Shown piece by piece: positions 20,657 to 59,815 of a stretch of 64,000 nt of DNA; position 1 is the stretch's first letter, and the number at the start of each line of letters is the position of its first letter. Source of the DNA: Oscillospiraceae bacterium. Its GTDB lineage: Bacteria > Bacillota > Clostridia > Oscillospirales > Oscillospiraceae. The translations under genes and the position numbers were made by a program. The notes beneath the pieces were generated by a model that did not search any database, was not told the origin of the DNA, and was given only the letters and a program-made list of their open reading frames with translations. Location of the stretch: NCBI GenBank assembly GCA_022846075.1, contig AP025582.1, forward strand, positions 1,302,001-1,366,000. Direction: 5' to 3'.

Positions 20657-20666
20657 GGAGAACGCC

Positions 20667-21509
20667 ATGAAAAAGAGAACGGTCAAGGACTTTATTGCCC
20701 TGTACGCCCCGGAAGATGAGGAAAAACTGGTACTGATCCAGGACGGTGTCAGCGCAGACAAAACCTTTCTGGATACCTACTGGGCGGCGCATACCCATGC
20801 CCTCGCCATGGCGGATGCCCAGACCGGACAGGTGATCTCCGGTCGATGCTACCTGAGCTGGCCGCTGACGGACAAGGAACGGGATGCCGGCGACTATTCC
20901 AAGCGGTTTACCAAGGGCCAGATCTACCGGATCAAAGCCCGCGGCTGGAAAGGTGATGCCCTCTACGAACCTCAGTGGTATGTCACTGAGGTACTGGAGG
21001 AAGGCGTACCCTGTCCGGCACTGGAGGAGATTTGGGCGGAATACACAAAGCCCATTCTTCTGGAGGACGAAGTGCTGGGAACCCTCACGCTGGATCGTGA
21101 GATGAGCATATTCGAGGGGACCTGTAAGTGGATGGGAAAAGAAGTCCGGATCTCGTTGGATGTGGAGATTGAAAAGAAAGCGTCCTGGACCCGTGTCACC
21201 AATGTGATGAAGAAACTGGTGGCAGATCAGGAGGTGTGGGACAAGTCCCTGCGGGCGATGGCTGCCCAGAAGCTCACCGCTCAGGCCAACGAGTGGCTGG
21301 CGGACAATGACCAGACCGACCGGGAAGCGGAGAAAGACCCCATCACCGAAGATGAGTTCGCCCGGCGCATCCTGCTCACCGAGTTTACAGTATCTCCCGG
21401 CGGCCGTTTTACCGCCTGGTACGAGGACGACGATATGTTCTGGGGCCATGTGATCACTGTGGATGGAACGCTGAAAAAAGGCCCCGTTGACGCTGATATA
21501 CAGGGCTGA
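20667..21509 (+). CDS. DUF2262 immunity-like protein (copy 1)
   Basis: 280 residues; ATG 20667 follows AAGGAG. The C-terminal ~130 residues carry the DUF2262 pattern: ITEDEFARRILLTEFTVSPG, then FTAWYEDDDMFWGH and GTLKKGPVDADIQG. The N-terminal half is a DUF7021-like alpha/beta domain. DUF2262 proteins are common beside polymorphic-toxin loci and in defence against contact-dependent toxins. A paralogue with the same architecture lies at 24266-25105. Confidence 0.75.
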   Translation: MKKRTVKDFIALYAPEDEEKLVLIQDGVSADKTFLDTYWAAHTHALAMADAQTGQVISGRCYLSWPLTDKERDAGDYSKRFTKGQIYRIKARGWKGDALYEPQWYVTEVLEEGVPCPALEEIWAEYTKPILLEDEVLGTLTLDREMSIFEGTCKWMGKEVRISLDVEIEKKASWTRVTNVMKKLVADQEVWDKSLRAMAAQKLTAQANEWLADNDQTDREAEKDPITEDEFARRILLTEFTVSPGGRFTAWYEDDDMFWGHVITVDGTLKKGPVDADIQG

Positions 21510-21540
21510 CAACAACCGTTTACAGGAGGAGGCATCCATT

Positions 21541-21819
21541 ATGTGCGAGCACTGCCGAAACATTCAAATATGGAGAAAATTTGATGCCCCAAAGGACTAC
21601 CTGGCCTGTATTGCCTATATCCAGCAGTTGGTGAAACAAGGTGAATTTGAACTGATAGCAGAGGAATCCACCTGTCCGCTGGAGAAGGTAAAGACTGAGG
21701 ATGGATGGGCAGACGAAATTATGGCTCACATGATTAGGTGCAAGCACTGCGGTCAGATATTCACCTGCGTAGTCAACACCTGGCGAGGCAGCGGACACTT
21801 CAAAAAAGGCAAAGGATGA
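21541..21819 (+). CDS. Small zinc-binding immunity-like protein
   Basis: 92 residues from ATG 21541 (GGAGGAGG upstream). Two Cys pairs (MCEHC at the N-terminus and CKHCGQIFTC near residue 70) should form one zinc site across a helical core (LACIAYIQQLVKQGEFELIA). The family recurs among predicted immunity genes. No catalytic residues are apparent. Confidence 0.65.
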   Translation: MCEHCRNIQIWRKFDAPKDYLACIAYIQQLVKQGEFELIAEESTCPLEKVKTEDGWADEIMAHMIRCKHCGQIFTCVVNTWRGSGHFKKGKG

Positions 21820-24265: not shown

Positions 24266-25105
24266 ATGTTTGAAGAATTCTATGAGATGTACGAGCCCGA
24301 GGAGCAGGAAGTGGTCGCGCTGATCAATCGCTGCATTGGGGGCGGATATAACTGGAAAGGCAAGTTTTGGGAAATGACCGTTGTGACGCTGGGCATGGTG
24401 TTCTGTGACACCGGCAAGGTCAGTACCAAGGAGGAGCGGTTGGATTGGCCGGTCACCGACGAGGAGCGCAACAGTGAAAAGGGCTGGGGACGCTTTCATA
24501 ACGAGCAGATCTGCCGCCTGAAGATCCGCCGAATGAAGGAAGAATGGGCAAAGGATCTGGTGGCGTGGCCCTGGTGTATCTCCGAGATAGTTAATGCCCA
24601 TGAGGACTGCCCGGAACTTCAGACCGTTCTGGACGAGTACCACAAGCCGGTGGTGATCCAGGACGAGGTGCTGGGTGAGCTGAAGCTGGACAAGGACTAT
24701 AACACCTTTGAGGGTGAGATCCAGTGGTGCGGAACGGATGTGTACCTGTCTCTGGAGGTCAATGCGGAGAGCAAGCCCTCCTGGACCCGTGCCCGCAGTG
24801 CCGCCAAGAAGCTGCTGGCCGACTGCGAGACCTGGGACAAGGCCATGCGGGAGCTTGCGGCAAAGAACCTGACCGGGCTGGCCAACGACTGGCTCTCCCA
24901 GGATGAGGAAAACCCCCGTGACCCGGAAACAGACCCCATCACAGAGGAAGAACTTGCCCGGCGGATCAGCATGACGAGCCTGTCCGTCACCTCCGGCGGC
25001 AGCTTCACCGCCTGGTTTGACTGCGACGAGATGTTCACCGACCATGCGGTGACGGTCTACGGCTCCTTGAAAAAGGGCCTCAAAGCTGCCAACATTGAGG
25101 GGTAA
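24266..25105 (+). CDS. DUF2262 immunity-like protein (copy 2)
   Basis: 279 residues; GGAGG precedes ATG 24266. It has the same architecture as the product of 20667-21509. Segments such as LLADCETWDKAMRELAAKNL correspond to LVADQEVWDKSLRAMAAQKL in copy 1. The C-terminal DUF2262 pattern ITEEELARRISMTSLSVTSG and GSLKKGLKAANIEG is present. The two copies are diverged, which suggests separate toxin specificities rather than a recent duplication. Confidence 0.75.
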   Translation: MFEEFYEMYEPEEQEVVALINRCIGGGYNWKGKFWEMTVVTLGMVFCDTGKVSTKEERLDWPVTDEERNSEKGWGRFHNEQICRLKIRRMKEEWAKDLVAWPWCISEIVNAHEDCPELQTVLDEYHKPVVIQDEVLGELKLDKDYNTFEGEIQWCGTDVYLSLEVNAESKPSWTRARSAAKKLLADCETWDKAMRELAAKNLTGLANDWLSQDEENPRDPETDPITEEELARRISMTSLSVTSGGSFTAWFDCDEMFTDHAVTVYGSLKKGLKAANIEG

Positions 25106-34294: not shown

Positions 34295-34740
34295 AACTCT
34301 ATGAACTGGTCAACCACTACCACATCGGCACGGAACTGACCTGCGCCGAGGCGATGTTCATGGCCTGCAATGAATATTACCATCTGAATTTGTCCGAGGA
34401 GACCCGGAAGATGTTCTCCGTCATGGGTCTTGGGATGCAGACGGAGCAGTCCTGCTGCGGTGCTTTCACTGTGGCAGTGGGGATCATTGGGCTGATGACC
34501 GCCAAAGAGGGTCAGACCGATGTGAACAACATGGAGGGCTACCGGATGATTGCTGAATTGACGGACTTCATGCTGGGCTTCTATGGAACGCTCCACTGTG
34601 TCGAGCTGCAAAAGCTGGAAATCATGGGTTATGAAAACCCTTGCCACGCCATTGTGGAGGCTCTGGCCAAGAAGTTGGAGGAGCTGCTGGCGGGTCGCAA
34701 GATCTTCCGCCCGGCAAATGCAGGACAGATCGGTTCCTGA
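34282..34740 (+). CDS. C-GCAxxG-C-C family protein
   Basis: 152 residues; ATG 34282 with TTGGAG 6 nt before. It begins within the end of the NADAR gene (13-nt overlap). The conserved Cys are in LTCAEAMFMACNEYY, QSCCGAFTVAVG, and later C residues (TLHCVELQKLE; NPCHAIVEAL). This is the C-GCAxxG-C-C family of probable metal or redox centre proteins. It is widespread in Firmicutes; a role in this array is unknown. Confidence 0.75.
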   Translation: MATMKLYELVNHYHIGTELTCAEAMFMACNEYYHLNLSEETRKMFSVMGLGMQTEQSCCGAFTVAVGIIGLMTAKEGQTDVNNMEGYRMIAELTDFMLGFYGTLHCVELQKLEIMGYENPCHAIVEALAKKLEELLAGRKIFRPANAGQIGS

Positions 34741-34763
34741 TATGCTGGAAAGCGAGGAAATAC

Positions 34764-35480
34764 ATGAGAGACTTTAGCCAATACGGAAATAGACGGGATG
34801 ACCAATGGGAGATTCTGCCCTGGATACCCGATCCGCGCCCGCCTTTCAAAATCTGGGTGAAGCCAGAGCAGATCGCGCCGTTCTTTTTCATCCCCCACCA
34901 CCCCTATGCGCTCTCCCTGCTGCTGAAGATCAGTGACGGATTCCGGGCAGAAGAATTCTGCCGGCTGGGACTGACCGGCAGCAGCGGAGACTGGGAACGG
35001 CTGGTCCGGGGCGTGATCCGGGAGTTCGAAGAAAACAATAGTGGTGAGGATCTGTTTCACTTCGACTCCGACGAGGATGTGTTCTGCGTGTACTCCCAAT
35101 ACATCGATGATTTGATGATGCTGGCCAAAATGATTCGGGCTGCCTGTGCCGATGAAAAAACGATGGGGGCTTATCTGGGCAGGTCCGAGTACATCAAGCT
35201 CTTTTGGGAGGGCGCACCGGAGGGTGAACCATCGGTCATCCTCTATGAAGTGAATACCGTAAATGATCGGCTGGCCCTGCGCTCCATTGACATCTCTGCG
35301 GATGGCCGCACCCGCAACATCCCTGACCTTTACGACGGCGCCATCGAGATCACGCCGATCCCCACCGTGGAGGAATTGAACGCCCATGTCTGGGGCGAGG
35401 AGTTCCACGCCTGCTTGATGGAGAAAGCGGAATTTGAGGCCATCTGGGAAAGCCACACCTATGATGGAGCGTTAAAGTAG
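34764..35480 (+). CDS. DUF6881-like immunity protein
   Basis: 238 residues from ATG 34764 (GCGAGGAAA). The C-terminal ~100 residues (YIKLFWEGAPEGEPSVILYE, RSIDISADGRTR, IEITPIPTVEELNAHVWGEE then FHACLMEKAEFEAIWES) fit the DUF6881 pattern of small beta/alpha immunity-associated domains. The N-terminal ~130 residues form a separate domain with a hydrophobic core (SLLLKISDGFRAEEFCRLGL). Moderate confidence in the domain. Confidence 0.65.
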   Translation: MRDFSQYGNRRDDQWEILPWIPDPRPPFKIWVKPEQIAPFFFIPHHPYALSLLLKISDGFRAEEFCRLGLTGSSGDWERLVRGVIREFEENNSGEDLFHFDSDEDVFCVYSQYIDDLMMLAKMIRAACADEKTMGAYLGRSEYIKLFWEGAPEGEPSVILYEVNTVNDRLALRSIDISADGRTRNIPDLYDGAIEITPIPTVEELNAHVWGEEFHACLMEKAEFEAIWESHTYDGALK

Positions 35481-38358: not shown

Positions 38359-41300
38359 ATGTATATCAAAAAATACTGGGGCAACTTTATCGGAGGCTCG
38401 GACGACAGCCTGAACCTTGTGGCATTTTTGGAGGATCAGAAACAAGAGGAGATCCCCCTCAGCGAGATTTTCGCCAAGATTGGTCTGGACAAGCAGAACT
38501 GGGACTTCCGCCAGACCGTGGAGTATCTGGAGTTCACCCATTCGGACGGCGTGGAGATGGACTTCCACTTCGCCATTGATGTGGTCACCGACCTGGCCGC
38601 CATCCTGCTGGAGTGCAGCGTCAGTGGCAGTGTAAACCTTCAGGATCTGGACGAGTACAACACCCCCGCCCGCCGTATCCGCATCACTGCTACGCCGGAG
38701 GAGCACGAGGCCATGGACAAGGCCCTGGCGGACTTTGTCCATGCCCCGCTGGAATACGACATCAGCGAGATGATGGGCGAGGATGAAATCACGGATATGG
38801 CTTCTCAGGTGGAGATGCTGCGGAAGGAGCTGTACGAAGCCTCTGGCCGCAACCGGAACTACCATGTAAAGGCGGAAGATGTAAAAGATCTGCTCCCCGA
38901 CTGGGAGGGTGCCGATGGCTGTATCGCCACCAACCGCATCACAGTGGAGGGCTGCAAGGTTGGCTACTGCTGCAGGGAGAAGCCGGACGGCGGCTGGGAC
39001 AGCGGCTGGCGCTTCACCGCTGGTGACGAGAGCGAGGCGTACATGGACGACCCCAACAACGCCGGGATTTACAAGCTGAACACAATTTGCAACGACGATC
39101 CCGACATCATTCCTCTGCTGAACACCCCCGCCCCCTGCGCCTTTGAGCGGGATGAGAACGGTGTGTTCCAGCAGATCAAAGACTGGAAACCGGATGAGGA
39201 CGAGGAGGACCCTGATATGGACATTTTGAAGCAGTGCCAGAAGTGGCATGAGGAGAGCAAACAACATAAAATTATTGATGCGCTGGAGGCCATCCCCGCC
39301 GAGGAGCGTACCCCTGAGATGGACAGCGAGTTGGCCCGTGCCTATAACAATCTGGCAGACCCACATAAGCCAACTTGCAAAGAAATGCTCAAAAAGGCCC
39401 TCGCTCTGCTAAAGCCCCATGAGGAATACTTCGAGGACGATTATTACTGGAACTTCCGCATGGGTTACTCCTACTTTTATCTGGATCAGGAGGGCCGGGC
39501 TCTGCGATATTTTGAAAAGGCATTGGAAGCTCGACCTGGTGACGAGGACACCAAAGAGTTTATCGACCGGTGCAAAAAGGGTATTTCTCTGCCGCAGTTC
39601 TGGGAGTGCTTCCGGGAGCGGACAGAGAACTGGTGGGAAACCTTTGCCGAGATGGAAGCAGAATTGCGCCAGATGATGGATGAGGACAAAGATCACACCC
39701 GCGGCGCAGAACTCGTGGCCCAAATGGAAGGGGCTTTGAACCAGGCGTTTGACGAAATCTCCTTCGAGATGGGCTTCAATGGCGAAAAGCATGAGTTGAT
39801 CCTCACCCCGGAGGGCGACAAGGTCAAGCTGTTTGAGCTGATTTACTTCCAGAAGCACGCCCCCAAGGAGGTGCTGGAGCACTGGAACATCCTTGTGGGC
39901 CGTCAGCCCCTCCAGAACATCGGTCTGCGTACTGAGAATGGCTGGGACATCTCCGGGGATGATGTGCAGATCTGGCTGGAGGAGGAGGGTGAAAACAGCT
40001 TCGCCATCTCCGCCTACTGTGAAAAGCTGCTGCCTATGCTCCGGGATGAGGAAGGCCGGGCCTGGTGGATGCTCACCACCCTCACCGACCAAGTGCTGGG
40101 CGAGATCCCCCACATGAGGTACATAGACAGCTTTGATGTGCTGGAGGAACCCAAGGCAGAGCCGTCCATTCTTATGTCCCAGCTTCCCGACGCTCTGAAG
40201 GAGCGGGGGCTGGAGCTCTCCACCGATCCGGAAGCCTATCTGGAGAGCTACCTTGGATACAAAATGGAACCCAACCAGGACCCGGATGCCGACTGGCGGC
40301 TGGACACCATGGTGGGCTCCACCTGCTGTGTGCCGCTCATCAACGGCTACCTGAACGCCGACAATGACTTCATGGACGATCTCCATGCTGACGGCGCAGT
40401 AGCGGGCTTCTTCTGCTATCCTCTGGATACCCTGCGGGAGGAGGAAGGCAGTCAGAAGATCTTTGACTTCCGGGACAAGCTGGAAGAAGTGTTTACCACT
40501 GATGAAGGATCGGAAGTGCTCACTCTCACCGGCGGGGCTACCGGCCTCTACTGTGGCTATGTGGACTTCATCGCCTGGGACATCCAAGAGGCGCTGAACA
40601 TGGCGAAAGAGTTCTTTGAAGGCACGGACATCCCATGGGCCATCTTCCACACCTTCCGCCGTGAAGCCGGTTCTGTATCCCTAAAGCAACAAGATGATGG
40701 GACAGAAACTGAGAATCAGGATGACGAGTTGGACGAAACGCTGACGGGCATGGACTATATTCCTTACACCCAACAGAACGCCGAAGCATTCTTCGCTCAG
40801 CTGGAGCAGTGGAACGACGAAGACGAGTACACCCGCTGTATCCAGGCACTGAATGCCATCCCGGAGAACTGGAGGAACTACCGCACCGCCTACGCCCTGG
40901 CCCGTGCACTGGAGAACTACGCCATCATCGGGGACCATGACGAAGGTACTTTGAAATCCAAGGGAGACAAAGCCCTTCTGAGGGCCATTGAGGTTCTGGT
41001 GTCCGTCCGGGAGGAAGGCCAGAACAAGGCCCAGTGGAATATGCGGATGGCCTATGGCTATCAGTATCTCTACGGCCAGGAGGAAAAGGCCATTCCCTAC
41101 GCCGAGCGGTGGGCGGAGCTGGACCCGGAGGATGAAAATGCTCCGGCGGTAATTCGGGAGTGTAAGGCGGAGATCCGGAAACGCCAGCGCAGCCGGAAGA
41201 AGAAGGCCAAATTCGTGCCCGGTGATACCCCATTTGAGGGCTTCGACCTCACCAACTTCTGGGATGATAATTGGTATGCACTGAAAGAATATGTCAGTGA

Positions 41301-44300
41301 TCCGCCTTCCGATGAGCTGATTGCCAGCGTGGAGGAGGAACTGGGCTACAAGCTGCCCGCCGCCTACATTTGGCTGATGAAGCAGCACAACGGCGGCATT
41401 CCGGTGAACACCTGCTATCCCTGCGATGAGCCTACCTGTTGGTCAGATGATCATGTGGCCATCACCGGCATTTTCGGAATCGGACGGGAAAAGAGCTGCT
41501 CCCTCTGTGGAGAGCTGGGCAGCCAGTTTATGATCGATGAGTGGGAGTATCCTGCCATCGGTGTGGCCATCTGCGACTGTCCAAGCGCCGGACACGATAT
41601 GATTTTCCTGGACTACCGGGCTTGCGGTCCCCAGGGAGAGCCTGCGGTAGTCCATGTGGATCAGGAAAATGACTATAAAATTACCCATCTGGCAGATAGC
41701 TTTGAGGAATTTATCCGCGGACTGGAGCATGAATCCCTCTATGATCCGGATGAAGATGCAGAGGGTCTTGAGGATGACGCCGACGAGGAGGAAACCGACC
41801 ATAAGGGTTCCTTTGCCGGATCTGTGCTCCTCTCCAAAGCAGAGTGGGACAAGGAGCAGTTGATTCGAGATCTGCGGGAAGAATGGGGTATCGTAGATGA
41901 GGAGCCGGATGAGGGCGACGAAGATGTTGAGAACAGCGATGACGCTGTGGTAATGCGGGTCGGCAATATGATGCTGATCGTGACACTATTCCACGGTCAC
42001 ATCCCTGACAATGAAGCAGAGATCAACGCCGAAAACAACTATATGTGGCCAGAGGCCGTAGAAGTGGCCAAAACGCACAAGGCCCATATCATGGTGGCTG
42101 TGTTGGGCGAGGAGGAAAAACTGCTGGAACGGGGTAAGCTGTTCACTAAGGCGATGGCAGTGTGCTGCAAGCAGAAATATGCCACCGGTGTCTACACCAG
42201 CGGCGTGGTATTTGAGCCTCGTTTCTATGAGGGCCTTGCCGATATGCTCAAAGAGGACGAACTGCCCATCTTCAACTGGGTTTGGTTCGGCCTGTACCGG
42301 AGCGAGGGGGGCCTAAACGGCTACACCTACGGCATGGATGTGTTTGGCAAGGAGGAAATGGAGGTGTTGAACACCGACGCTGAGCCGGAGGAACTGCGGG
42401 ACTTTTTGGCCAGCCTTGCCTCCTATGTGCTGGCGTGTGATGTCACACTGAAAGATGGCGAGACCATCGGTTTTGATGCAGATGATAAGCACACCATCAC
42501 CCGCAGCTCTGGCGTCGGACTGCCGGAGGAGCAGATGACTCTGAAAATCTCCTGGGCGTCATCAGACGATGACCCTGACGATGACGGTGATGACCCGGAC
42601 GGCGAAATGCCCGAGGATGAAGAAGCCGGTGTTCCCGAGGTCTACACCGGGGAGGAGATGGAGGCCGTCGAGGGGCACATTGAGCAGTATTTCGGCGAGG
42701 TCGAGAATGTGTTCCACGAGATCGTTTCCCCCGACATCCATGTGGACATCTGCATCGTGCCGCCCACTGAGGAGCGGGACTATTACACCCTGGTCACCAT
42801 GGGCATGGGCGCCCACCGGATGAATGTGCCGGAGGAACTGGCGGAATACAAGCTGGAGCGGGCGGAGCTGGCCATTGCACTGCCTGCGGACTGGAAGCTG
42901 GATCGGCAATCCATGCAGGACGAGCGGTGGTACTGGCCCATCCGCCTGCTGAAGGTTCTGGCCCGCCTGCCCATTGCCAGCGATACCTGGCTGGGCTTCG
43001 GTCATACCATGGACAATGAGGAGGACTTTGCGGAAAATACGAAGCTGTGTGCCGCCATTCTCACCGGCCCCCAGAGTACAGAGGAGGGCGGCGAGGTCGG
43101 CACACTCCCAGGCGGCGAGGAGGTCAACTTCTATCAGGTGATCCCCCTCTACCGGGATGAATTGGAATATAAAATGGAGCATGATGCAGATGCCCTGTTG
43201 GACAAAATGAACGGCATCAGCTTTGTGGTCAATCCCACCCGCCAGAATGCTATCACCCGTAGCACCCTTTCCAATGATGATTTTGACGGCGAGATGGACG
43301 ACGCTTCCTATCACCTTGAGAGCATTGAGGAGAAGGAACTGCCTATTGACCCCATCAATGCTTATAACCACATGGCCATCTACTTGCGCTGGTGCATGGA
43401 GCACGACCTGATGGGTGAAGAATTCCTTGCAGAGTACGGAGAGGTGGCAGAAAAGGTCAAGGCTGATCCTGCCAGTGTGGATCTGCGGGCGTTTATCCGG
43501 GATGAGCTGGACGGCTGTCTGTTCTCTGTGCTGTTCAATCAGCAAGGCCGTGCCTTTGCAGGCTATTACTACGGAGAGGGCGACAGCCCCTACTATCCTG
43601 CCGATGTTGACGACAACGCACTCCGCTTCTTCGGCCCGGAGCGGTATCACTCCGATGAGTTCCAGGATGAAGCCTACCTGTTCATCCCCTTTGAAGAGGA
43701 CTACTATCAGGCTATGGCAGAGGTGATCGAAGAACGCTTTGAAAACTGGCAGGGACAGGACTTCGACGAGGACACGCTGGAGCCCTCCGAGGTGGCTCAG
43801 GCCATCATGGAGTATCTGGACTGCGAGTGTACCTATTTCCCATCCATGGCAGACGATGACCCCATCATGTCGGCATACAGCTATGCCAAACGGGAAAGCA
43901 TCCAAGAGGGCTTTGTTCCCGTGCTCATCAAGGCGGATGACGAGACGCTGTTGGAGTGTCTGGTAATGAACGCCGACCCGGAGCACGATGCGGACTTCTA
44001 TGAATTTGACCTCAAAACGGTAACGGAGTATCGAAAGAAGATGCTCTCCGCTCCCGTCAAGGACGGAAAGGCGGTTTTGGAGGAATTGACCGGCCAGCGT
44101 AAGGAAGAAGCCGAGGACGATGATCTGAACTGGGAGGAGGAAGTCCTGGGCGAGATGGAGGGCGGCTATGACAACGACCGCTTCTCCTGCTACTGGGACT
44201 CGGACAGTCACATGACATATCCGCTCATTTTGGCTAAAATTCCGGTAAAGAACCCCTGGGAGATCTTCGCCTATCTGCCCTTTGGAAATTGGAATGAGTG

Positions 44301-44556
44301 TCCCGACACCCCGGAGCTGATGGCGGTGGCAAAATACTGGTTCCAGCGGTATGGCGCCATCCCTGCCGCCATGAGCCACGATGAGTTGGAGTTCCTGCTC
44401 CCGGCCCCTGTTTCTAAAGAGATGGCCATGGAGGTTGCCACAGAGCAGTACGGCTTCTGCCCGGACATCGTGGATCAGGAGCAGGATGACCCCACTGTGG
44501 GCAATCTGGCAGATGTTCTGTGGCAGTCCACCGTCTGGTATTTCTGGTGGGATTGA
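38359..44556 (+). CDS. Giant polyimmunity protein (2,065 residues; Imm51-like, DUF2185, TPR, SUKH, DUF4261, SUFU, DUF4253)
   Basis: Domains in order: ~1-140 Imm51-like (YWGNFIGGSDDSLNLVAFL). ~167-270 DUF2185/Imm33-like (SGWRFTAGDESEAYMDDPNN, IYKLNTICNDDPDIIPLL). ~287-410 TPR-like helices. ~412-770 unassigned. ~808-936 second TPR-like block. ~963-1122 SMI1/KNR4 (SUKH) (LGYKLPAAYIWLMKQHNGGI). ~1150-1399 DUF4261 (SVLLSKAEWDKEQLIRDLRE). ~1428-1636 SUFU. ~1668-1830 unassigned (AYNHMAIYLRWCMEHDLMGE). ~1850-2065 DUF4253 (KNPWEIFAYLPFGNWNECPD). Acidic linkers (~1123-1145, ~1400-1425) separate domains. No signal peptide, no toxin domain and no membrane helix. Single proteins with several immunity domains are known as polyimmunity proteins; this one is exceptionally long. 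It lies 3 nt after the DUF4259 stop. Confidence 0.85.
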   Translation: MYIKKYWGNFIGGSDDSLNLVAFLEDQKQEEIPLSEIFAKIGLDKQNWDFRQTVEYLEFTHSDGVEMDFHFAIDVVTDLAAILLECSVSGSVNLQDLDEYNTPARRIRITATPEEHEAMDKALADFVHAPLEYDISEMMGEDEITDMASQVEMLRKELYEASGRNRNYHVKAEDVKDLLPDWEGADGCIATNRITVEGCKVGYCCREKPDGGWDSGWRFTAGDESEAYMDDPNNAGIYKLNTICNDDPDIIPLLNTPAPCAFERDENGVFQQIKDWKPDEDEEDPDMDILKQCQKWHEESKQHKIIDALEAIPAEERTPEMDSELARAYNNLADPHKPTCKEMLKKALALLKPHEEYFEDDYYWNFRMGYSYFYLDQEGRALRYFEKALEARPGDEDTKEFIDRCKKGISLPQFWECFRERTENWWETFAEMEAELRQMMDEDKDHTRGAELVAQMEGALNQAFDEISFEMGFNGEKHELILTPEGDKVKLFELIYFQKHAPKEVLEHWNILVGRQPLQNIGLRTENGWDISGDDVQIWLEEEGENSFAISAYCEKLLPMLRDEEGRAWWMLTTLTDQVLGEIPHMRYIDSFDVLEEPKAEPSILMSQLPDALKERGLELSTDPEAYLESYLGYKMEPNQDPDADWRLDTMVGSTCCVPLINGYLNADNDFMDDLHADGAVAGFFCYPLDTLREEEGSQKIFDFRDKLEEVFTTDEGSEVLTLTGGATGLYCGYVDFIAWDIQEALNMAKEFFEGTDIPWAIFHTFRREAGSVSLKQQDDGTETENQDDELDETLTGMDYIPYTQQNAEAFFAQLEQWNDEDEYTRCIQALNAIPENWRNYRTAYALARALENYAIIGDHDEGTLKSKGDKALLRAIEVLVSVREEGQNKAQWNMRMAYGYQYLYGQEEKAIPYAERWAELDPEDENAPAVIRECKAEIRKRQRSRKKKAKFVPGDTPFEGFDLTNFWDDNWYALKEYVSDPPSDELIASVEEELGYKLPAAYIWLMKQHNGGIPVNTCYPCDEPTCWSDDHVAITGIFGIGREKSCSLCGELGSQFMIDEWEYPAIGVAICDCPSAGHDMIFLDYRACGPQGEPAVVHVDQENDYKITHLADSFEEFIRGLEHESLYDPDEDAEGLEDDADEEETDHKGSFAGSVLLSKAEWDKEQLIRDLREEWGIVDEEPDEGDEDVENSDDAVVMRVGNMMLIVTLFHGHIPDNEAEINAENNYMWPEAVEVAKTHKAHIMVAVLGEEEKLLERGKLFTKAMAVCCKQKYATGVYTSGVVFEPRFYEGLADMLKEDELPIFNWVWFGLYRSEGGLNGYTYGMDVFGKEEMEVLNTDAEPEELRDFLASLASYVLACDVTLKDGETIGFDADDKHTITRSSGVGLPEEQMTLKISWASSDDDPDDDGDDPDGEMPEDEEAGVPEVYTGEEMEAVEGHIEQYFGEVENVFHEIVSPDIHVDICIVPPTEERDYYTLVTMGMGAHRMNVPEELAEYKLERAELAIALPADWKLDRQSMQDERWYWPIRLLKVLARLPIASDTWLGFGHTMDNEEDFAENTKLCAAILTGPQSTEEGGEVGTLPGGEEVNFYQVIPLYRDELEYKMEHDADALLDKMNGISFVVNPTRQNAITRSTLSNDDFDGEMDDASYHLESIEEKELPIDPINAYNHMAIYLRWCMEHDLMGEEFLAEYGEVAEKVKADPASVDLRAFIRDELDGCLFSVLFNQQGRAFAGYYYGEGDSPYYPADVDDNALRFFGPERYHSDEFQDEAYLFIPFEEDYYQAMAEVIEERFENWQGQDFDEDTLEPSEVAQAIMEYLDCECTYFPSMADDDPIMSAYSYAKRESIQEGFVPVLIKADDETLLECLVMNADPEHDADFYEFDLKTVTEYRKKMLSAPVKDGKAVLEELTGQRKEEAEDDDLNWEEEVLGEMEGGYDNDRFSCYWDSDSHMTYPLILAKIPVKNPWEIFAYLPFGNWNECPDTPELMAVAKYWFQRYGAIPAAMSHDELEFLLPAPVSKEMAMEVATEQYGFCPDIVDQEQDDPTVGNLADVLWQSTVWYFWWD

Positions 44557-47332: not shown

Positions 47333-48082
47333 ATGAACAAAGAATCATTGACTGCGAAACTCCTGGACTTGGCTGAGGGACGGGAAACACCTGAAACCTG
47401 GCAGAACTGGTGGGACGAACATGAGACGGAGCTGGAAGCCCTGCTGAGTCGTGGTGAATTTTTGAAACTGAAGCCCCGCCGACATGGTTTTCAGTGGGTC
47501 CCGGTATTGGGCAGCCAAAAGGGAGCCATCGCCATTCTGGAAAAGAGCGGCACAGCATTTGAGGCCAGCAATCTCTACCAGGAGCAGTATCTGGCCGAGC
47601 TGGACGCTTTCTGCAAGGAGCAGGAGCGAGTGCAGCGGGAAAAGCAAAAGGAATTCAAGACCAACAACCCGGAGTTGTTTGGCCGATACCCCAAGTTCTC
47701 CAAGGCGTTGGCAAAGGGGCTTGACCCCTCTGACGAGATCCAGCCTGCCGCCACGGAGGAGCAGATCAGGAATCAAGAAAGCGTGCTGGACTTCACGCTC
47801 CCGTCCCAGGTGCGGGAGTTCTTCCTACTGACCGCAGGCATCAATGTATCCACAGGCGTAATCGTTGAACTCTCTGGAACATTTCATCTGACCATCCATG
47901 GAGAGCGGTATTGTGTGCTGGGCGAGTTCTGGAAAGAAGCGGACGGCGACCAACTTCTGCTCCGCCCCGGCGAGGAAACCATCTGGTACTACGCCCATGA
48001 GCAGGACAAGGTAAAGCGCCTCTGCAATGATATGACAGAACTGCTGGAGAAGAAATTGGCGAGGTATCTCAATGAGCACTGA
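47333..48082 (+). CDS. SMI1/KNR4 (SUKH) family protein with N-terminal extension
   Basis: 249 residues. The C-terminal ~125 residues carry the SUKH core: ATEEQIRNQESVLDFTLPSQ, then VREFFLLTAGINVSTGVIVE and the final TELLEKKLARYL helix. The N-terminal ~110 residues are a helical domain with a Trp-rich start (ETWQNWWDEHETELEALLSR). SUKH proteins bind and neutralise diverse toxins. It overlaps the next gene. Confidence 0.75.
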   Translation: MNKESLTAKLLDLAEGRETPETWQNWWDEHETELEALLSRGEFLKLKPRRHGFQWVPVLGSQKGAIAILEKSGTAFEASNLYQEQYLAELDAFCKEQERVQREKQKEFKTNNPELFGRYPKFSKALAKGLDPSDEIQPAATEEQIRNQESVLDFTLPSQVREFFLLTAGINVSTGVIVELSGTFHLTIHGERYCVLGEFWKEADGDQLLLRPGEETIWYYAHEQDKVKRLCNDMTELLEKKLARYLNEH

Positions 48083-55605: not shown

Positions 55606-56568
55606 ATGCAGAATTCAACAAATATGCGGATACTGGAATTGCTCCGGTTTCTCTATGAGCGGACCGATGAAAACCATCCCGCCACAGTATCTGACATCAT
55701 TGCCCATCTGAATGGAAAAGGAATTCAGGCAGTGCGGCAGACTGTTTACGCGGATACCAATGCTCTGATCGATGCAGGAATTGATATTGTGGTGGTCAAG
55801 AGTACCCAAAACCAATATTTTATGGGAAGCCGCCTGTTTGAGTATCCAGAACTGAAAATGCTGACAGACGCAGTAGCATCCTCGAAGATCATTTCTGCCA
55901 AGAAATCTGAGGAACTGGTACAGAAATTATGCCGTCTGACCAGCACACATCAGGCAGAGCAGCTTCGGCAGCTCGCCGGCCTGTCCAGCCGGGTGAAACC
56001 GGACAATGAGCAAGTCTATTACATCATTGATGCCATCCAAACGGCGATCTTGGAAAAGCGACAGATCCAGTTCCAGTATTATGAATATACGCCCGAGAAA
56101 AAACGAGTTCTCAAACATGGCGGTTATCTCTATAAACTGGACCCTTACGCTTTGGAATGGAAGAATGACCACTATTACCTGATCGGCTTTTCTCACAAAC
56201 ACCAGCGGATGGCTCATTTCCGAGTAGACCGCCTGTCAGGGATCAAGATACTTCCCTCCGGCTTTACCCCCGATGAAGACTTTGATGTGGCGGGCTACAC
56301 CAACAAGATCGTTGATATGTTTGCTGCTGACCGCACAGTTTCTGTTGAACTGCTCTGTGAGAACAAGCTGATGAAAACCATCATAGACCACTATGGAGAA
56401 GCTGTGCCAACCCGTACATATGACGAGGAACACTTTACGGCAAACATTGAAGTCGACCCAAGCGGCACCTTTTACGGCTGGGTATTCAAATTTATGGGTG
56501 GGATTCAGATCATAGCACCCCAAGAGTGTATAGAAGAAATGAAGCGGATCGCCCACAGGTTTCTCTAA
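55606..56568 (+). CDS. WYL-domain transcriptional regulator
   Basis: 320 residues. The N-terminal winged helix-turn-helix (~8-60, RILELLRFLYERTDENHPAT) is followed by a WYL domain (~140-230; LDPYALEWKNDHYYLIGFSH is the characteristic stretch) and a C-terminal WCX-like region. WYL regulators bind ligands, often nucleic acid or nucleotides, and control defence islands including phage-defence and CRISPR loci. It closes the immunity operon with no terminator before it, so it is probably co-transcribed and autoregulatory. Confidence 0.85.
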   Translation: MQNSTNMRILELLRFLYERTDENHPATVSDIIAHLNGKGIQAVRQTVYADTNALIDAGIDIVVVKSTQNQYFMGSRLFEYPELKMLTDAVASSKIISAKKSEELVQKLCRLTSTHQAEQLRQLAGLSSRVKPDNEQVYYIIDAIQTAILEKRQIQFQYYEYTPEKKRVLKHGGYLYKLDPYALEWKNDHYYLIGFSHKHQRMAHFRVDRLSGIKILPSGFTPDEDFDVAGYTNKIVDMFAADRTVSVELLCENKLMKTIIDHYGEAVPTRTYDEEHFTANIEVDPSGTFYGWVFKFMGGIQIIAPQECIEEMKRIAHRFL

Positions 56569-56625: not shown

Positions 56626-56654
56626 TTGTATCGAACGGATGTGCCAGTTATAAT
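56626..56654 (+). promoter_or_regulatory. Promoter of the ImmR-like regulator
   Basis: -35 TTGTAT (56626-56631), 17-bp spacer, -10 TATAAT (56649-56654). The operator at 56666-56683 lies just downstream of the expected start point, as expected for an autoregulated gene. Confidence 0.75.
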
Positions 56655-56665
56655 ATAAACAAGAT

Positions 56666-56683
56666 GTTCGCAAACCAGCGAAA
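56666..56683 (+). promoter_or_regulatory. Operator GTTCGC-N6-GCGAAa (copy 1)
   Basis: Inverted repeat GTTCGC AAACCA GCGAAA placed between promoter and start of the Xre-family gene. Copy 2 with perfect arms is at 57769-57786. Position and repetition suggest binding by the regulator encoded at 56705. Confidence 0.65.
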
Positions 56684-56704
56684 CTCTATGAAGGAGGGAG
56701 ACCA

Positions 56705-57064
56705 GTGACCTTTGGAGCTTTCATCAGCACACGGCGCAAAGAGGCCAAATTAAATCTCCGGGATACCGCGAAACACCTCGGTATCTCCAATGGGTACCTG
56801 TGTGATATTGAGCAGGGTCGCCGGCCAGCGCCAGAGGGAGCGTTTGTAGAGCGGATCTCTTCTTTTCTGGAATTGGATAAGCAGGAGCATGAAATGCTGC
56901 TGGATCTGGCCGCAGATTCCAGGCAGACAGTTCCGGCCGATCTGCCTGACTATATCCGCCAGCATGACATCGTCCGCGCAGCATTGAGAGTGGCAAAGGA
57001 AGTAGATGCTACCGATGAGGAATGGAAAGCATTTATGGAAATGCTGCAGAACCGCCAGAACTAA
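56705..57064 (+). CDS. ImmR-like Xre-family repressor
   Basis: 119 residues from GTG 56705 (GGAGGGAG). Xre helix-turn-helix at about residues 5-60 (FISTRRKEAKLNLRDTAKHL, then GISNGYLCDIEQGRRPAPEG). A helical C-terminus ends in DEEWKAFMEMLQN. It is followed within 12 bp by an ImmA-type protease gene. In ICEBs1-like systems ImmR represses the excision/transfer genes and is cut by ImmA when the element is induced. That pairing is inferred here from gene order. Confidence 0.8.
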   Translation: MTFGAFISTRRKEAKLNLRDTAKHLGISNGYLCDIEQGRRPAPEGAFVERISSFLELDKQEHEMLLDLAADSRQTVPADLPDYIRQHDIVRAALRVAKEVDATDEEWKAFMEMLQNRQN

Positions 57065-57076
57065 GGAGGGATTTTC

Positions 57077-57691
57077 TTGTCTGTACCAAAGTATCGATTG
57101 GACGCAATTGAAACCATTGGACGGAAGATCCTGCAAGAGTATGATCCCGTTTTGTTGGACGGGCCTCCCCAGGCAGTTCCCATTGAAACTATCATAGAGA
57201 CCAAGTTTGATCTAACTCTGGAATATCATTGCCTACGCAAAAACGGGAGCATCCTTGGGGAAACGATTTTTGATGAAGGAGCGGCCATTTTATATGACCA
57301 AGATGAAAAACGCTACCGCCTGATTGCAGTCAAGGCCGGAACGATCTTGGTGGAGGAGCGGCTTTGTGTGGACAGGCTCCTCGGCAGGCTGCGGTTCACC
57401 TGTGCTCACGAATTGGGGCACTGGGTCCTGCACCAGAAGCTGTACTCCGGCACAGGCGATGTGGCTGCCTATGAAGGAAAAACATCTTTGGATGAAAGCC
57501 ATGGTCTGGTCGAATGGCAGGCGGATGCTTTGGCTACTGCTCTCCTCATGCCCCTGCCGCAAATCAAAAGAAGTTTTTACCGGTTGCGTGCAGGCAGAAG
57601 CAATGAGCAGCTGGTTGCGGAAATGGCTCAGATCTTCCAAGTCTCCAAGCAGGCCATGCGTATTCGGTTGGAAACACGCAATCTCATATAA
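57077..57691 (+). CDS. ImmA/IrrE-family metallopeptidase
   Basis: 204 residues from TTG 57077 (AAGGAGGG). The zinc-metallopeptidase motif HELGHWVLHQ lies at about residues 110-119, with a further acidic residue in SLDESHGLVEWQADALATALL as the third ligand. ImmA-type enzymes cleave the ImmR repressor to derepress the element. Together with the upstream gene it forms the usual anti-repressor pair. It lies 114 bp before the next gene. Confidence 0.85.
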   Translation: MSVPKYRLDAIETIGRKILQEYDPVLLDGPPQAVPIETIIETKFDLTLEYHCLRKNGSILGETIFDEGAAILYDQDEKRYRLIAVKAGTILVEERLCVDRLLGRLRFTCAHELGHWVLHQKLYSGTGDVAAYEGKTSLDESHGLVEWQADALATALLMPLPQIKRSFYRLRAGRSNEQLVAEMAQIFQVSKQAMRIRLETRNLI

Positions 57692-57708
57692 GTTTGGTAC
57701 GGCAAGCC

Positions 57709-57726
57709 CCCCTCCTGAGAGAGGGG
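57709..57726 (+). terminator. Short GC-rich hairpin after the ImmA-like gene
   Basis: CCCCTC / GAGGGG (57709-57714, 57721-57726) with a 6-nt loop, 18 bp behind the stop. A U-tract is lacking, so termination is uncertain. Confidence 0.4.
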
Positions 57727-57768
57727 CGCAGCCGCACCAATGTTCACAGGCTTTGTTATATGCATTTT

Positions 57769-57786
57769 GTTCGCAGTTTAGCGAAC
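57769..57786 (+). promoter_or_regulatory. Operator GTTCGC-N6-GCGAAC (copy 2)
   Basis: A perfect inverted repeat directly in front of the regulator gene at 57806. Same arms and same spacer length as copy 1 at 56666, so the same protein should bind both. It would let the repressor control the downstream activator gene. Confidence 0.65.
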
Positions 57787-57805: not shown

Positions 57806-58348
57806 ATGAGAAAAGAAAGCTCCACTGTGCAGAAATGTAAAAGGCAGATGGCGACCCTTGGATTTGACAGCCAGCTGGCCTATCACCGCGTAAAGCTGAT
57901 TTTGAAAATCTACCGGGATGTGGTGTGGGTCCTCAGTGAGCGGGTGGAGGAACTGCATGAGTATGCCTGGGAGCTGGGCGCTCAGGACGCTGATACCGGG
58001 CTTATCTATCTGCAAAGCTTCGCCCCGGATATGGATCTGCAGGAGTTTGAGGAACGGGTCTGCTGTGTGATGGAAAACCGGATGCTGGTGGATGTGATCG
58101 ACCGTGCCCTTCTCCGCTTGAAACGATACCCTGACCGGGGTGAACTTTACTATGAGATCCTGACCAAACAATTTATCCACCGTTTCAACAGCACAGAAAA
58201 GGAACTGCTGGATGAGCTGAATATGGAGCGAAGCGTATTCTATGACCGAAAGCGCGAGGCGATCTTCTTATTGTCCCTCTGCCTTTTTGGTTATGCTGTG
58301 CCGGAACTTCAGGAAGAATTGGAGATGCCCCGACTTTATCCCGACTGA
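57806..58348 (+). CDS. ArpU/sigma-region-4-like regulator
   Basis: 180 residues from ATG 57806 (GGGAGGAGG). All-helical; the C-terminal part (FNSTEKELLDELNMERSVFY then DRKREAIFLLSLCLFGYAVP) resembles the DNA-binding end of ArpU-type phage regulators and sigma region 4. Such proteins activate late or transfer genes. It lies directly upstream of six 11-bp direct repeats (58330-58395) that overlap its own 3' end and a promoter; a regulatory link is inferred. Confidence 0.65.
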   Translation: MRKESSTVQKCKRQMATLGFDSQLAYHRVKLILKIYRDVVWVLSERVEELHEYAWELGAQDADTGLIYLQSFAPDMDLQEFEERVCCVMENRMLVDVIDRALLRLKRYPDRGELYYEILTKQFIHRFNSTEKELLDELNMERSVFYDRKREAIFLLSLCLFGYAVPELQEELEMPRLYPD

Positions 58349-58395
58349 TTCCCGATGAAAAACCGACGAAATCCCTACTCTCTTCCGACTTTGCC
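58330..58395 (+). repeat. Six 11-bp direct repeats (CCGAC family) in front of a promoter
   Basis: Units start at 58330, 58341, 58352, 58363, 58374 and 58385, always 11 bp apart. All keep CC at positions 1-2; five keep CCGA, and four CCGAC. The last unit lies about 9 bp before a TATACT -10 box. Regular helical spacing and position over the -35 region indicate a protein-binding array. Confidence 0.8.
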
Positions 58396-58400
58396 TCTGC

Positions 58401-58406
58401 TATACT
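58401..58406 (+). promoter_or_regulatory. -10 box TATACT of the sigma-like operon
   Basis: A good -10 without a recognisable -35. The -35 position is occupied by the 11-bp repeats, which suggests a promoter that needs an activator bound there. Confidence 0.6.
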
Positions 58407-58453: not shown

Positions 58454-58554
58454 GGGCCGGGACGCTGTAAAGTGTCCCGGCCCGCTGTATTCCTGCCGCA
58501 ATATGGCGGCAGGGATCAGCCGGGGATGCAGAAATGCGTCCCCGGCTATTTTTC
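58454..58554 (+). ncRNA. Structured leader: two hairpins and an intrinsic terminator
   Basis: Hairpin 1: GGGCCGGGAC / GTCCCGGCCC (58454-58463, 58474-58483). Hairpin 2: CCTGCCGC / GCGGCAGG (58492-58499, 58506-58513). Hairpin 3: AGCCGGGGA / TCCCCGGCT (58518-58526, 58539-58547) followed by ATTTTT, a typical terminator. All lie between the -10 box at 58401 and the coding region at 58665, so transcription of the gene needs antitermination. Confidence 0.7.
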
Positions 58555-58577: not shown

Positions 58578-58613
58578 ATGGGCTGGGAGGCTTATATCGC
58601 CAAGTACCCCTGA
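58578..58613 (+). CDS. Putative 11-residue leader peptide
   Basis: ATG 58578 has GGGAGGG 5 nt upstream. Product MGWEAYIAKYP, stop TGA 58611-58613. The stop sits at the base of the 16-bp hairpin that precedes the next ribosome site. A translational-coupling or attenuation role is possible. Confidence 0.4.
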   Translation: MGWEAYIAKYP

Positions 58614-58649
58614 TTTCAAGATTTTGATTCGCCATCAAAATCTTGAAAT
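58613..58649 (+). promoter_or_regulatory. 16-bp AT-rich hairpin before the sigma-like gene
   Basis: Perfect arms ATTTCAAGATTTTGAT / ATCAAAATCTTGAAAT with a 5-nt loop. It ends three nucleotides before the Shine-Dalgarno GGAGG (58652-58656) and could hide or expose it depending on ribosome movement on the short upstream frame. Confidence 0.7.
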
Positions 58650-58664: not shown

Positions 58665-59105
58665 ATGGAATCCAACGGGAAGTTTACCCTTATTGTTTTT
58701 AACACCTGCACTCAGGAATATGAGGAAGTCATAGTGACAGAGGAGGTCTATCGTACTTACTGCAGAACACGGTGGAATATCAAGGACAACGATCAGAGCT
58801 TTTTTGACCATGAGATCCAGACGAGTGGGATGATCGGAAGTCAGGATGGCGCCTATGAAAATTTCCGGGAGTTTATTGACGCTATCAACACCCCGGAACA
58901 CATCATCCTTGAACAAATGAAGAAAGAGGCCCTGTACCAAGCGATCTCAGCGTTGCCTGCTGCGGATCAGGCATTGGTACAGGGGTTGTTTTTTAAGGGA
59001 CAAAGTGAACTTGACTATGCAAGAGAGATTGGCGTTTCACAGCCTGCAGTGCATAAACGGAAAGTCCGTATTCTCAAGTCTTTGAAAAAACTTTTAGAAA
59101 ATTGA
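58665..59105 (+). CDS. Sigma-70-like (region 4) regulator
   Basis: 146 residues; ATG 58665 with GGAGG. The N-terminal ~60 residues are a small domain with TFVIFNTC-like strand (KFTLIVFNTCTQEYEEVIVT). The C-terminal part (LPAADQALVQGLFFKGQSEL then DYAREIGVSQPAVHKRKVRI) is a sigma region-4 helix-turn-helix. Such short factors on ICEs and phages direct RNA polymerase to element promoters. Confidence 0.8.
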   Translation: MESNGKFTLIVFNTCTQEYEEVIVTEEVYRTYCRTRWNIKDNDQSFFDHEIQTSGMIGSQDGAYENFREFIDAINTPEHIILEQMKKEALYQAISALPAADQALVQGLFFKGQSELDYAREIGVSQPAVHKRKVRILKSLKKLLEN

Positions 59106-59180: not shown

Positions 59181-59815
59181 AAACCGAATATCCGATTGTC
59201 TGAATACTTTCCTGACGGGGCCCCTGCTGGACAGGGGCAAGCGACGCTGGAGGATGCGCGAAAACCACCTGTAGAGGTTCTGGTACAGGCTGCAAACGAA
59301 GTCACCTATACATTTTTGTTCGGTTATGACAGCCTGCCGGATTTCCCCTCTATCAACGACGGCCAAATAAGGTGCCAAGCGGGTCCATCCGTCCAAAAAA
59401 CAGCCTGTGGCAAGCTGTATCGCAATGACTCCGCCAGGGATAATGATACTTCCGTCCAGTCACAGCCCCCACCGAAATGGGGATCAAGCAATGAGGGCGG
59501 CCGACAGAGATCCTGCCGGGGGTGAGAGTCCCATGACGCGGTGAAGCCAGCCGCGGTTCAGATGGTCGCCCTACGGAGCCAGCGCCAGTGGCGCAGGCTT
59601 TTGCGCTTGGGGAAGTAGTGTCGAATACGAGCGCAGCAGAAGACAACACAAATGTGGAGTCTTAATATCAGAAGCTATGGGGATCGCTTCTGTCCAAAAC
59701 CCGTTTACTGACCGGAACATGCCGTATGAGCAGCCATTCCAACCAGATGCGGGAGATGCGGAGGCGGTCCCTATTTTTGTGATATTAAGCCCAATATGCT
59801 GAGGAGGTGTATTCT
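59181..59815. other. Long non-coding region with many hairpins (candidate structured RNA)
   Basis: About 630 bp without a convincing gene. Hairpins include CCCCTG / CAGGGG (59221-59226, 59232-59237), and a GC-rich core around 59510-59620 with GGGTGAGAGTCCC, CCGCGG and CAGCGCC/GGCGC-type pairings. An inverted pair CTTAATATCA / TGATATTAAG (59661-59670, 59780-59789) brackets the last 130 bp before the MazF gene. I see no known riboswitch signature. Confidence 0.45.

Follow-up and report, generated by a model that had tools for sequence, protein, structure and literature searches.

Repressor-protease pairs are common on gut mobile elements, and few of their binding sites are known. The locus described here, from contig AP025582.1 of an Oscillospiraceae bacterium (positions 1,302,001 to 1,366,000, a 64,000-nucleotide stretch hereafter called the window, in whose numbering coordinates are given), raises the question of where such a repressor acts and what it holds in check. 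We consider it highly probable that the locus is a lysogeny-type switch of an integrative mobile element, in which a repressor would act on two palindromes and an ArpU-like protein would form the next step. The first-pass annotation had proposed a circuit of this kind; its interpretation is partly supported, and comparison with relatives would extend it to a general rule of paired, coevolving operators. The ImmR/ImmA-like pair that it recognized agrees with Pfam, which finds an XRE repressor (HTH_31) followed by an M78 metallopeptidase with a HELGH motif. The features of the switch, all on the plus strand except for the two strandless palindromes, are as follows.

55606-56568, + strand: gene for a WYL/WCX-domain regulator, upstream of the switch (Pfam WYL, 9e-15; WCX, 2e-5)
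56626-56654, + strand: sigma-A-like promoter of the XRE-ImmA operon, TTGTAT-17-TATAAT (from sequence; matrix score 10.9)
56666-56683, no strand: op1, GTTCGC-N6-GCGAAa, sequence GTTCGCAAACCAGCGAAA
56705-57064, + strand: XRE repressor, 119 aa, GTG start, Asp34 in the recognition helix (Pfam HTH_31, 2.1e-9)
57077-57691, + strand: ImmA-like metallopeptidase, 204 aa, HELGH motif (Pfam Peptidase_M78, 1.9e-12)
57752-57760, + strand: T-rich stretch 17 to 9 bp before op2, degenerate here and a clear T-tract in most relatives
57769-57786, no strand: op2, GTTCGC-N6-GCGAAC, sequence GTTCGCAGTTTAGCGAAC
57806-58348, + strand: ArpU-like regulator, 180 aa (phrog_1558, 2.2e-7; phrog_248, 1.3e-4)

The repressor also matches Pfam HTH_3 (4e-5), and HExxH is present in 84 of 88 matches to ImmA homologs, one of the four misses being too short to hold the motif. 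The name "ArpU-like", by comparison, is a weak label, used in the first-pass annotation, for a protein that has PHROG matches only (phrog_1558, and phrog_248, "transcriptional activator"); the protein has no Pfam or NCBIfam match at E 0.01, and its AlphaFold prediction, from an alignment of 9 rows, has a mean pLDDT of 56. The hexamers of the repressor promoter (TTGTAT, 56626-56631; TATAAT, 56649-56654) are separated by a 17-bp spacer, and its matrix score is equaled by a fraction of 0.01 of shuffles; this promoter is absent from the list of a stricter built-in promoter scan. A homolog of the WYL/WCX regulator is found upstream of the XRE gene in most close relatives. A second palindrome, GAAC-N4-GTT[C/T], occurs in or near the spacer between the -35 and -10 elements of the XRE promoter in L006-L010, L035, L039, L050, and L011, mostly in loci with a WYL gene upstream, and is a candidate site for the WYL regulator; the copy in the window (56632-56648 region) is degenerate, with only half kept.

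The placement of op1 downstream of the ImmR-like promoter and of op2 upstream of the next regulator gene, as initially proposed, is correct in the sequence. Both sites are 18-bp palindromes; op1 lies directly downstream of the XRE promoter, since it starts 17 bp past the first base of TATAAT (56649), and op2 ends 19 bp before the ATG (57806) of the next gene. In the whole genome (3,230,334 bases), GTTCGC-N6-GCGAA gives three strand matches, only at 56666 and 57769, and the reversed-pattern control gives none, so that no further copies of GTTCGC-N6-GCGAAC beyond op1 and op2 exist in this genome at that stringency. Counting sites in the window was discarded as evidence, as it is uninformative alone: with up to two mismatches allowed, 2 sites are found versus 1.97 expected. 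What goes beyond chance is the position of the two sites and their conservation, the counts alone not being strong. In the whole genomes of three GTTCGC-type relatives (G209, G200, and G567) and of three GTTCTC-type relatives (G118, G078, and G253), all perfect palindromes fall inside the switch locus, and a further GTTCTC-type genome (G333) has one perfect palindrome outside it. Comparison thus indicates near-exclusiveness of the perfect palindromes to the switch locus, and the regulon of the XRE repressor therefore seems to consist of op1 and op2.

We compared 102 loci with the XRE gene, including the window's own copy (L005, which was kept or represents its group); the window copies L001-L003 were excluded from all locus counts. 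A recognizable ImmA follows the XRE gene in 82 of the 102 loci, and the 20 loci without one by tblastn were left out of the operator counts. A next gene with 70% or more identity to the ArpU-like gene is present in 27 loci, L005 included, and in all of them op2 is exact and op1 has at most two mismatches; this count leaves out loci without an ArpU-like gene or with one below 70% identity (L026). Both sites are thus kept in close relatives with the same next gene. For wider comparisons, redundancy was removed at roughly 90% repressor identity, with a slightly different measure for each of two sets, of 53 and 43 loci. In 31 of the 53 loci, the region behind ImmA and that of the repressor promoter have one palindrome in common, with a score of 14 or more (14 being the 99th percentile for dinucleotide shuffles), and the other 22, among them L026 (ArpU-like identity 53%), have no shared palindrome at this threshold. 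The shared letters vary by locus, being GTTCGC, GTTCTC, GTTCAG, GTTCCC, GTTAGC, GTAAGC, TTACGC, or TTATGC. In the 43-locus set, the true pairing of the two places scores 580 versus 508 for the best random pairing, a value matched by none of 20,000 permutations, and it also beats all permutations among the 37 loci without an ArpU-like gene and among the 29 with repressor identity below 45%. We take these sequence comparisons to establish the site pair. Op2 exceeds op1 in palindromic symmetry (12 versus 4), but the difference is not significant (p 0.08).

This joint pairing with permutation replaced an earlier ranking test, in which the best palindrome behind ImmA was compared with its own and with foreign promoters. 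That test was weak (at most two foreign promoters were as good for only 7 of 19 perfect palindromes, with a median of 4) because it selected unrelated hairpins, terminators among them, and because half-site letters are common among relatives.

The identity of the protein that reads the palindromes is suggested by covariation. Mutual information, computed over 28 loci between the six half-site positions and those repressor alignment columns that have no more than 3 gaps, singles out residue 34 and base 5 as the top covarying pair (z of 12.7 versus 8.3 for the next). Asp34 goes with G at base 5 in 18 of 18 loci and Asn34 goes without G in 10 of 10; for op1 alone, the counts are 15 of 18 and 10 of 10. 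A second run, which added L067 and L084 (pair score 12), gave 19 of 19 for Asp with G and 11 of 11 for Asn without G, L067 having Asp34 within an Asn clade. Three loci (L107, L055, and L019), in which the register is unsure or the residue is neither Asp nor Asn, were left out of these counts and of the 28-locus hexamer and hairpin counts given below. The link rests on 2 to 4 changes in the tree, and an independent-pairs test yields only 1 or 2 supported pairs, too few to reach significance, so we regard it as a strong hint, not proof, that residue 34 sets base 5. By sequence match to the PDB, residue 34 aligns with residue 33 of SinR, and a hydrogen bond accepted by Asp34 from the cytosine opposite G5 would be chemically plausible. 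Residue 33 of SinR lies in the recognition helix and is suspected by the authors of that work of altering specificity (PMC3163267).

One locus, L007, has an N-type repressor and an ImmA about 53-54% identical to those of the window and an ArpU-like protein 88% identical, and its sites are mixed (op1, GTTCTC/GTTCCC; op2, GTTCGC). It looks like a natural chimera, as if op2 had moved with the ArpU-like gene.

Since the sites change together with the recognition helix of this XRE protein, op1 and op2 are both very probably bound by it. One rival explanation is that another protein, for example the WYL regulator, binds both palindromes and that the XRE protein uses other sites. The WYL gene does adjoin the switch, and several loci with a WYL gene have GAAC-N4-GTTY within their XRE promoter; the paired palindromes nevertheless persist without a visible upstream WYL homolog (L013, L014, L024, and L027), and the covariation, computed for XRE residues, is with the XRE helix, so that we consider this explanation very improbable. 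Even less credible to us is the idea that the palindromes function as RNA hairpins in 5' leaders and not as DNA operators. Both sites stand in transcribed leaders before ribosome binding sites and the palindrome is maintained through base changes, but op1 is often imperfect as a hairpin (L004, L035, and L039), and in any one genome the two places have the same letters, which covary with a residue that recognizes DNA.

If the XRE protein occupies both sites, it may act differently at each. Op1 is preceded by a sigma-A promoter, whose -10 element usually begins 14-17 bp before the site. The promoter score is higher at op1 than at op2 in 23 of 24 loci (means of 12.3 and 5.4; Wilcoxon, 6e-5), and a TATAAT-like hexamer is present near op1 in 21 of 28 loci and near op2 in 1 of 28. 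For op2, no recognizable sigma-A promoter was found by the promoter scan, by our own matrix, or by a hexamer search, the silence of the built-in scan saying little because the same scan missed the op1 promoter. What does precede op2 is a T-tract at 16 to 10 bp before the site (mean T of 0.71 across 31 loci, a value reached by none of 5000 random shifts); in L004, near-identical to the window, 6 of the 9 positions of the T-rich stretch are T. A DNA-bound protein such as EcoRI Q111 halts RNA polymerase some 14 bp upstream, a distance that would place the active site of a polymerase halted at op2 within the T-tract. Precedents for DNA-bound regulators that halt elongation are described for mycobacteriophage stoperators (PMC9283540) and for C.Kpn2I (PMC6237814). 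The working hypothesis that we favor, at somewhat less than an even chance, is that op2 is a roadblock, where the repressor would stop readthrough polymerase from the repressor promoter near the T-tract. On our reading, most op2 sites would lack a promoter of their own and polymerase would arrive from the repressor promoter. That op2 is a repressor-dependent terminator across many XRE-ImmA modules, with one promoter for silence and induction alike through autorepression at op1 and gated readthrough at op2, and with a residue-34 code (Asp or Asn) for each module, is a tentative and rather doubtful generalization.

Two other explanations of op2 have to be weighed against the roadblock. Op2 could be an ordinary operator over a weak, activator-dependent, or noncanonical promoter of the ArpU-like gene, the T-tract being part of that promoter or of the ImmA terminator. 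The T-tract indeed stands nearly where the -10 box stands before op1, some TANNNT lies nearby in 24 of 28 loci, and a few loci have acceptable scores before op2 (L007, 7.9, reached by 0.02 of shuffles; L005, 6.8, by 0.06); set against this are the low mean score and the single TATAAT-like hexamer at op2 reported above, as well as the mere 19 bp from the end of op2 to the start codon in the window. We hold this to be nearly as probable as the roadblock, although short of an even chance. It bears on the initial proposal that the repressor controls both itself and the ArpU-like regulator, of which the action of the XRE protein at both sites stands and the repression of an ArpU-like promoter is unproven, because op2 has no recognizable sigma-A promoter; blocking of readthrough at op2 is at least as likely. 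The T-tract could also be nothing other than the U-tract of the XRE-ImmA operon terminator, held at a fixed distance by compact packing. A significant hairpin does precede the tract in 11 of 28 loci, for example L064, L065, and L027, but most op2 regions are not plain terminators because such a hairpin is limited to these 11; the tract is retained without a significant hairpin in L008, L011, L013, and L014, and its alignment at -16 to -10 exceeds 5000 of 5000 random shifts. We therefore consider the U-tract explanation unlikely.

Beyond op2, the region that would carry the signal onward contains the following features.

58330-58389, + strand: array of CCGAC-like units with 11-bp phasing; overlaps the ArpU-like gene at its end (from sequence)
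58398-58406, + strand: extended -10, TGCTATACT, behind the array, with no -35 (from sequence)
58518-58547, + strand: intrinsic terminator, after the array promoter and ahead of the sigma-like gene (13-pair stem, T run)
58578-58613, + strand: leader peptide of 11 codons, MGWEAYIAKYP and stop, conserved across loci
58614-58648, + strand: hairpin directly following the stop codon of the leader, shortly before the Shine-Dalgarno sequence (z of -4.3, read in L032)
58665-59105, + strand: small sigma-region-4-like protein (TIGR02937, 1.6e-9, below the curated cut-off; Sigma70_r4_2, 1.7e-4)

In each of the seven loci inspected, one of which is L026 (ArpU-like identity 53%), six phased 11-bp units begin inside the ArpU-like gene, 19 bases from its end, and TGnTA[T/C]ACT is retained in the ArpU-type loci inspected. 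At least 5 array units are present in 27 of 27 loci with an ArpU-like gene and in 0 of 27 without one, which reach 2 units at most; only loci with 750 bases or more of sequence behind ImmA entered this count. That the ArpU-like protein acts on the 11-bp repeats, as first proposed, is thus strongly indicated by the linkage of array and gene across loci, and the arrangement is one that an activator of this origin would require. The number of units varies between near-identical elements, L039 having one more than L042. The further assumption that the array promoter simply switches on the sigma-like gene needs revision, as the terminator and the leader peptide with its hairpin intervene. The hairpin has z values of -3.1 to -7.4 over 17 distinct sequences, and the sigma-like protein differs between elements.

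The leader consensus ...W-x-x-YIA[K/R/Q]YP-stop precedes sigma-region-4-like genes that are small and highly diverse, and the same leader is found in L031-L035, L037-L053, L008-L010, L012-L014, L021, L065, L068, L070, L101, and the viral contigs L117-L121. The hairpin starts within a few bases of the leader stop and mostly pairs with part of the Shine-Dalgarno sequence. Leader peptide and hairpin look like a translational attenuator with a ribosome-arrest peptide, which is possibly more interesting than the paired operators; a literature search for "YIAKYP" found no paper. A pemK RNA motif (RF02913, E 8.5e-10; 59440-59536) follows the sigma-like gene, ahead of a MazF/PemK-like gene at 59807.

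The surroundings of the switch are those of a mobile element. The window holds a MobL relaxase (9066-12062; 9.5e-34) and a T4SS coupling protein (14194-16008; 2e-42), and a large serine recombinase is found just beyond its right edge, at L114:5979-7649 (about 69,979-71,649 in window numbering), about 13 kb from the switch, with apparently chromosomal genes farther on. Relaxase, coupling protein, and recombinase fit an integrative mobile element, as judged from genes. Near the right end of the element is a gene for a Y-family DNA polymerase (impB/mucB/samB; L114:141-1649), which would be compatible with a DNA-damage link. A 2065-aa protein of immunity domains (38359-44556; Imm68, Imm33, SUKH, DUF4261, SUFU, DUF7832, and DUF4253) and further immunity-type genes (DUF2262 and Imm51; 19274-21563, 24266-25105, 34641-35480, and 47333-48082) make up a predicted polyimmunity cargo island on the element. 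Near-identical switches occur in Oscillibacter sp. ER4, Flavonifractor plautii, and Anaerotruncus colihominis (two copies), and a version about 73% identical occurs in Faecalibacterium longum, Hungatella, Eisenbergiella, Emergencia, and Holdemania, among others. In viral contigs, a homology search confirmed no ImmA relative and the pattern of op2 plus ribosome binding site was not found; two of these contigs (L120 and L121), reached through the leader-peptide pattern, do carry this XRE-ImmA pair. In the distant relatives L011, L013, L052, and L065, the gene behind op2 encodes a small protein with CxxC zinc-ribbon motifs, not an ArpU-like protein.

Based on these observations, we suggest the following mechanism. 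The XRE protein would bind both 18-bp palindromes; at op1, which covers about +5 to +22 of its own promoter, it would limit its own operon, and at op2 it would prevent expression of the ArpU-like gene. In the roadblock version, bound XRE protein would stop readthrough polymerase with the active site in or near the T-tract. Inactivation of the repressor by the ImmA-like protease would free both sites, and the ArpU-like protein would then be made, bind the 11-bp array that overlaps the end of its gene, and activate the extended -10 promoter behind. Cleavage by ImmA and induction by DNA damage are proposed by analogy with ICEBs1. The same switch appears to drive exchangeable first genes, and, as both sites change together with one repressor residue in many relatives, each element appears to possess a private on/off switch. 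Since each locus labels its own site twice, such sites may be readable from sequence alone, specificity may be linked to residues, and cross-immunity between elements may become predictable. If op2 is a repressor-gated stop, a mobile element would be silenced from one promoter, unlike the textbook arrangement with two.

A literature search on ImmR/ImmA operators, stoperators, ArpU, and leader peptides found no description of this locus among the papers listed, and several known systems resemble parts of it. The ICEBs1 arrangement is divergent, with several ImmR sites; here, in contrast, the controlled gene is codirectional and lies behind the protease gene, there is one palindrome per place, and the target is an ArpU-like protein, or a zinc-ribbon protein in other relatives. 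The likeness to ImmR/ImmA lies in the combination of an XRE-type repressor with an ImmA metalloprotease on an integrative element (PMC6540685). In ICEBs1 of Bacillus subtilis, the repressor is described as keeping the excision and transfer genes off and ImmA as inactivating the repressor (PMC6540685). CapP ("CapP toxin", 7t5t, 2.5e-5) is the sole PDB match of the ImmA-like protein and the only solved relative found for it. In CBASS, CapP cuts its XRE partner, CapH; no CBASS genes were recognized among the proteins scanned here.

By sequence, SinR/SlrR is the closest named natural regulator with a solved structure, and the DNA-binding domains are homologous: the PDB matches of the repressor (5tn0, 3qq6, and 1b0n, SinR) have E values of 0.001-0.002 and cover residues 4-63 only, and the match to TransRegSlrRBacil reaches 24 bits with a cut-off of 250. 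We know of no link of SinR/SlrR to a protease gene. The operator sequence, called new in the first-pass annotation, is less foreign than it seemed, since the SinR consensus GTTCTYT (PMC3163267) resembles the GTTCTC of the N-type relatives. In B. subtilis, the SinR motif is reported to occur in variable numbers and orientations (PMC3163267), versus two sites here. Palindromes upstream of XRE genes have been predicted in a survey in which 9 of 10 tested were bound (PMC12565409), and motifs of the op1 type may already be contained in its motif tables. The available text of that survey deals with upstream sequences only, unlike the paired-site analysis presented here, and describes neither a second site behind a protease gene nor a coupling of residue and base (PMC12565409). 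As in our model, the stoperator system of cluster A mycobacteriophages is reported to combine one repressor with sites at the promoter and intergenic sites proposed to halt elongation (PMC9283540). Stoperators comprise more than 20 asymmetric, orientation-dependent sites (PMC9283540), whereas op1 and op2 are palindromic and just two, the second behind a T-tract.
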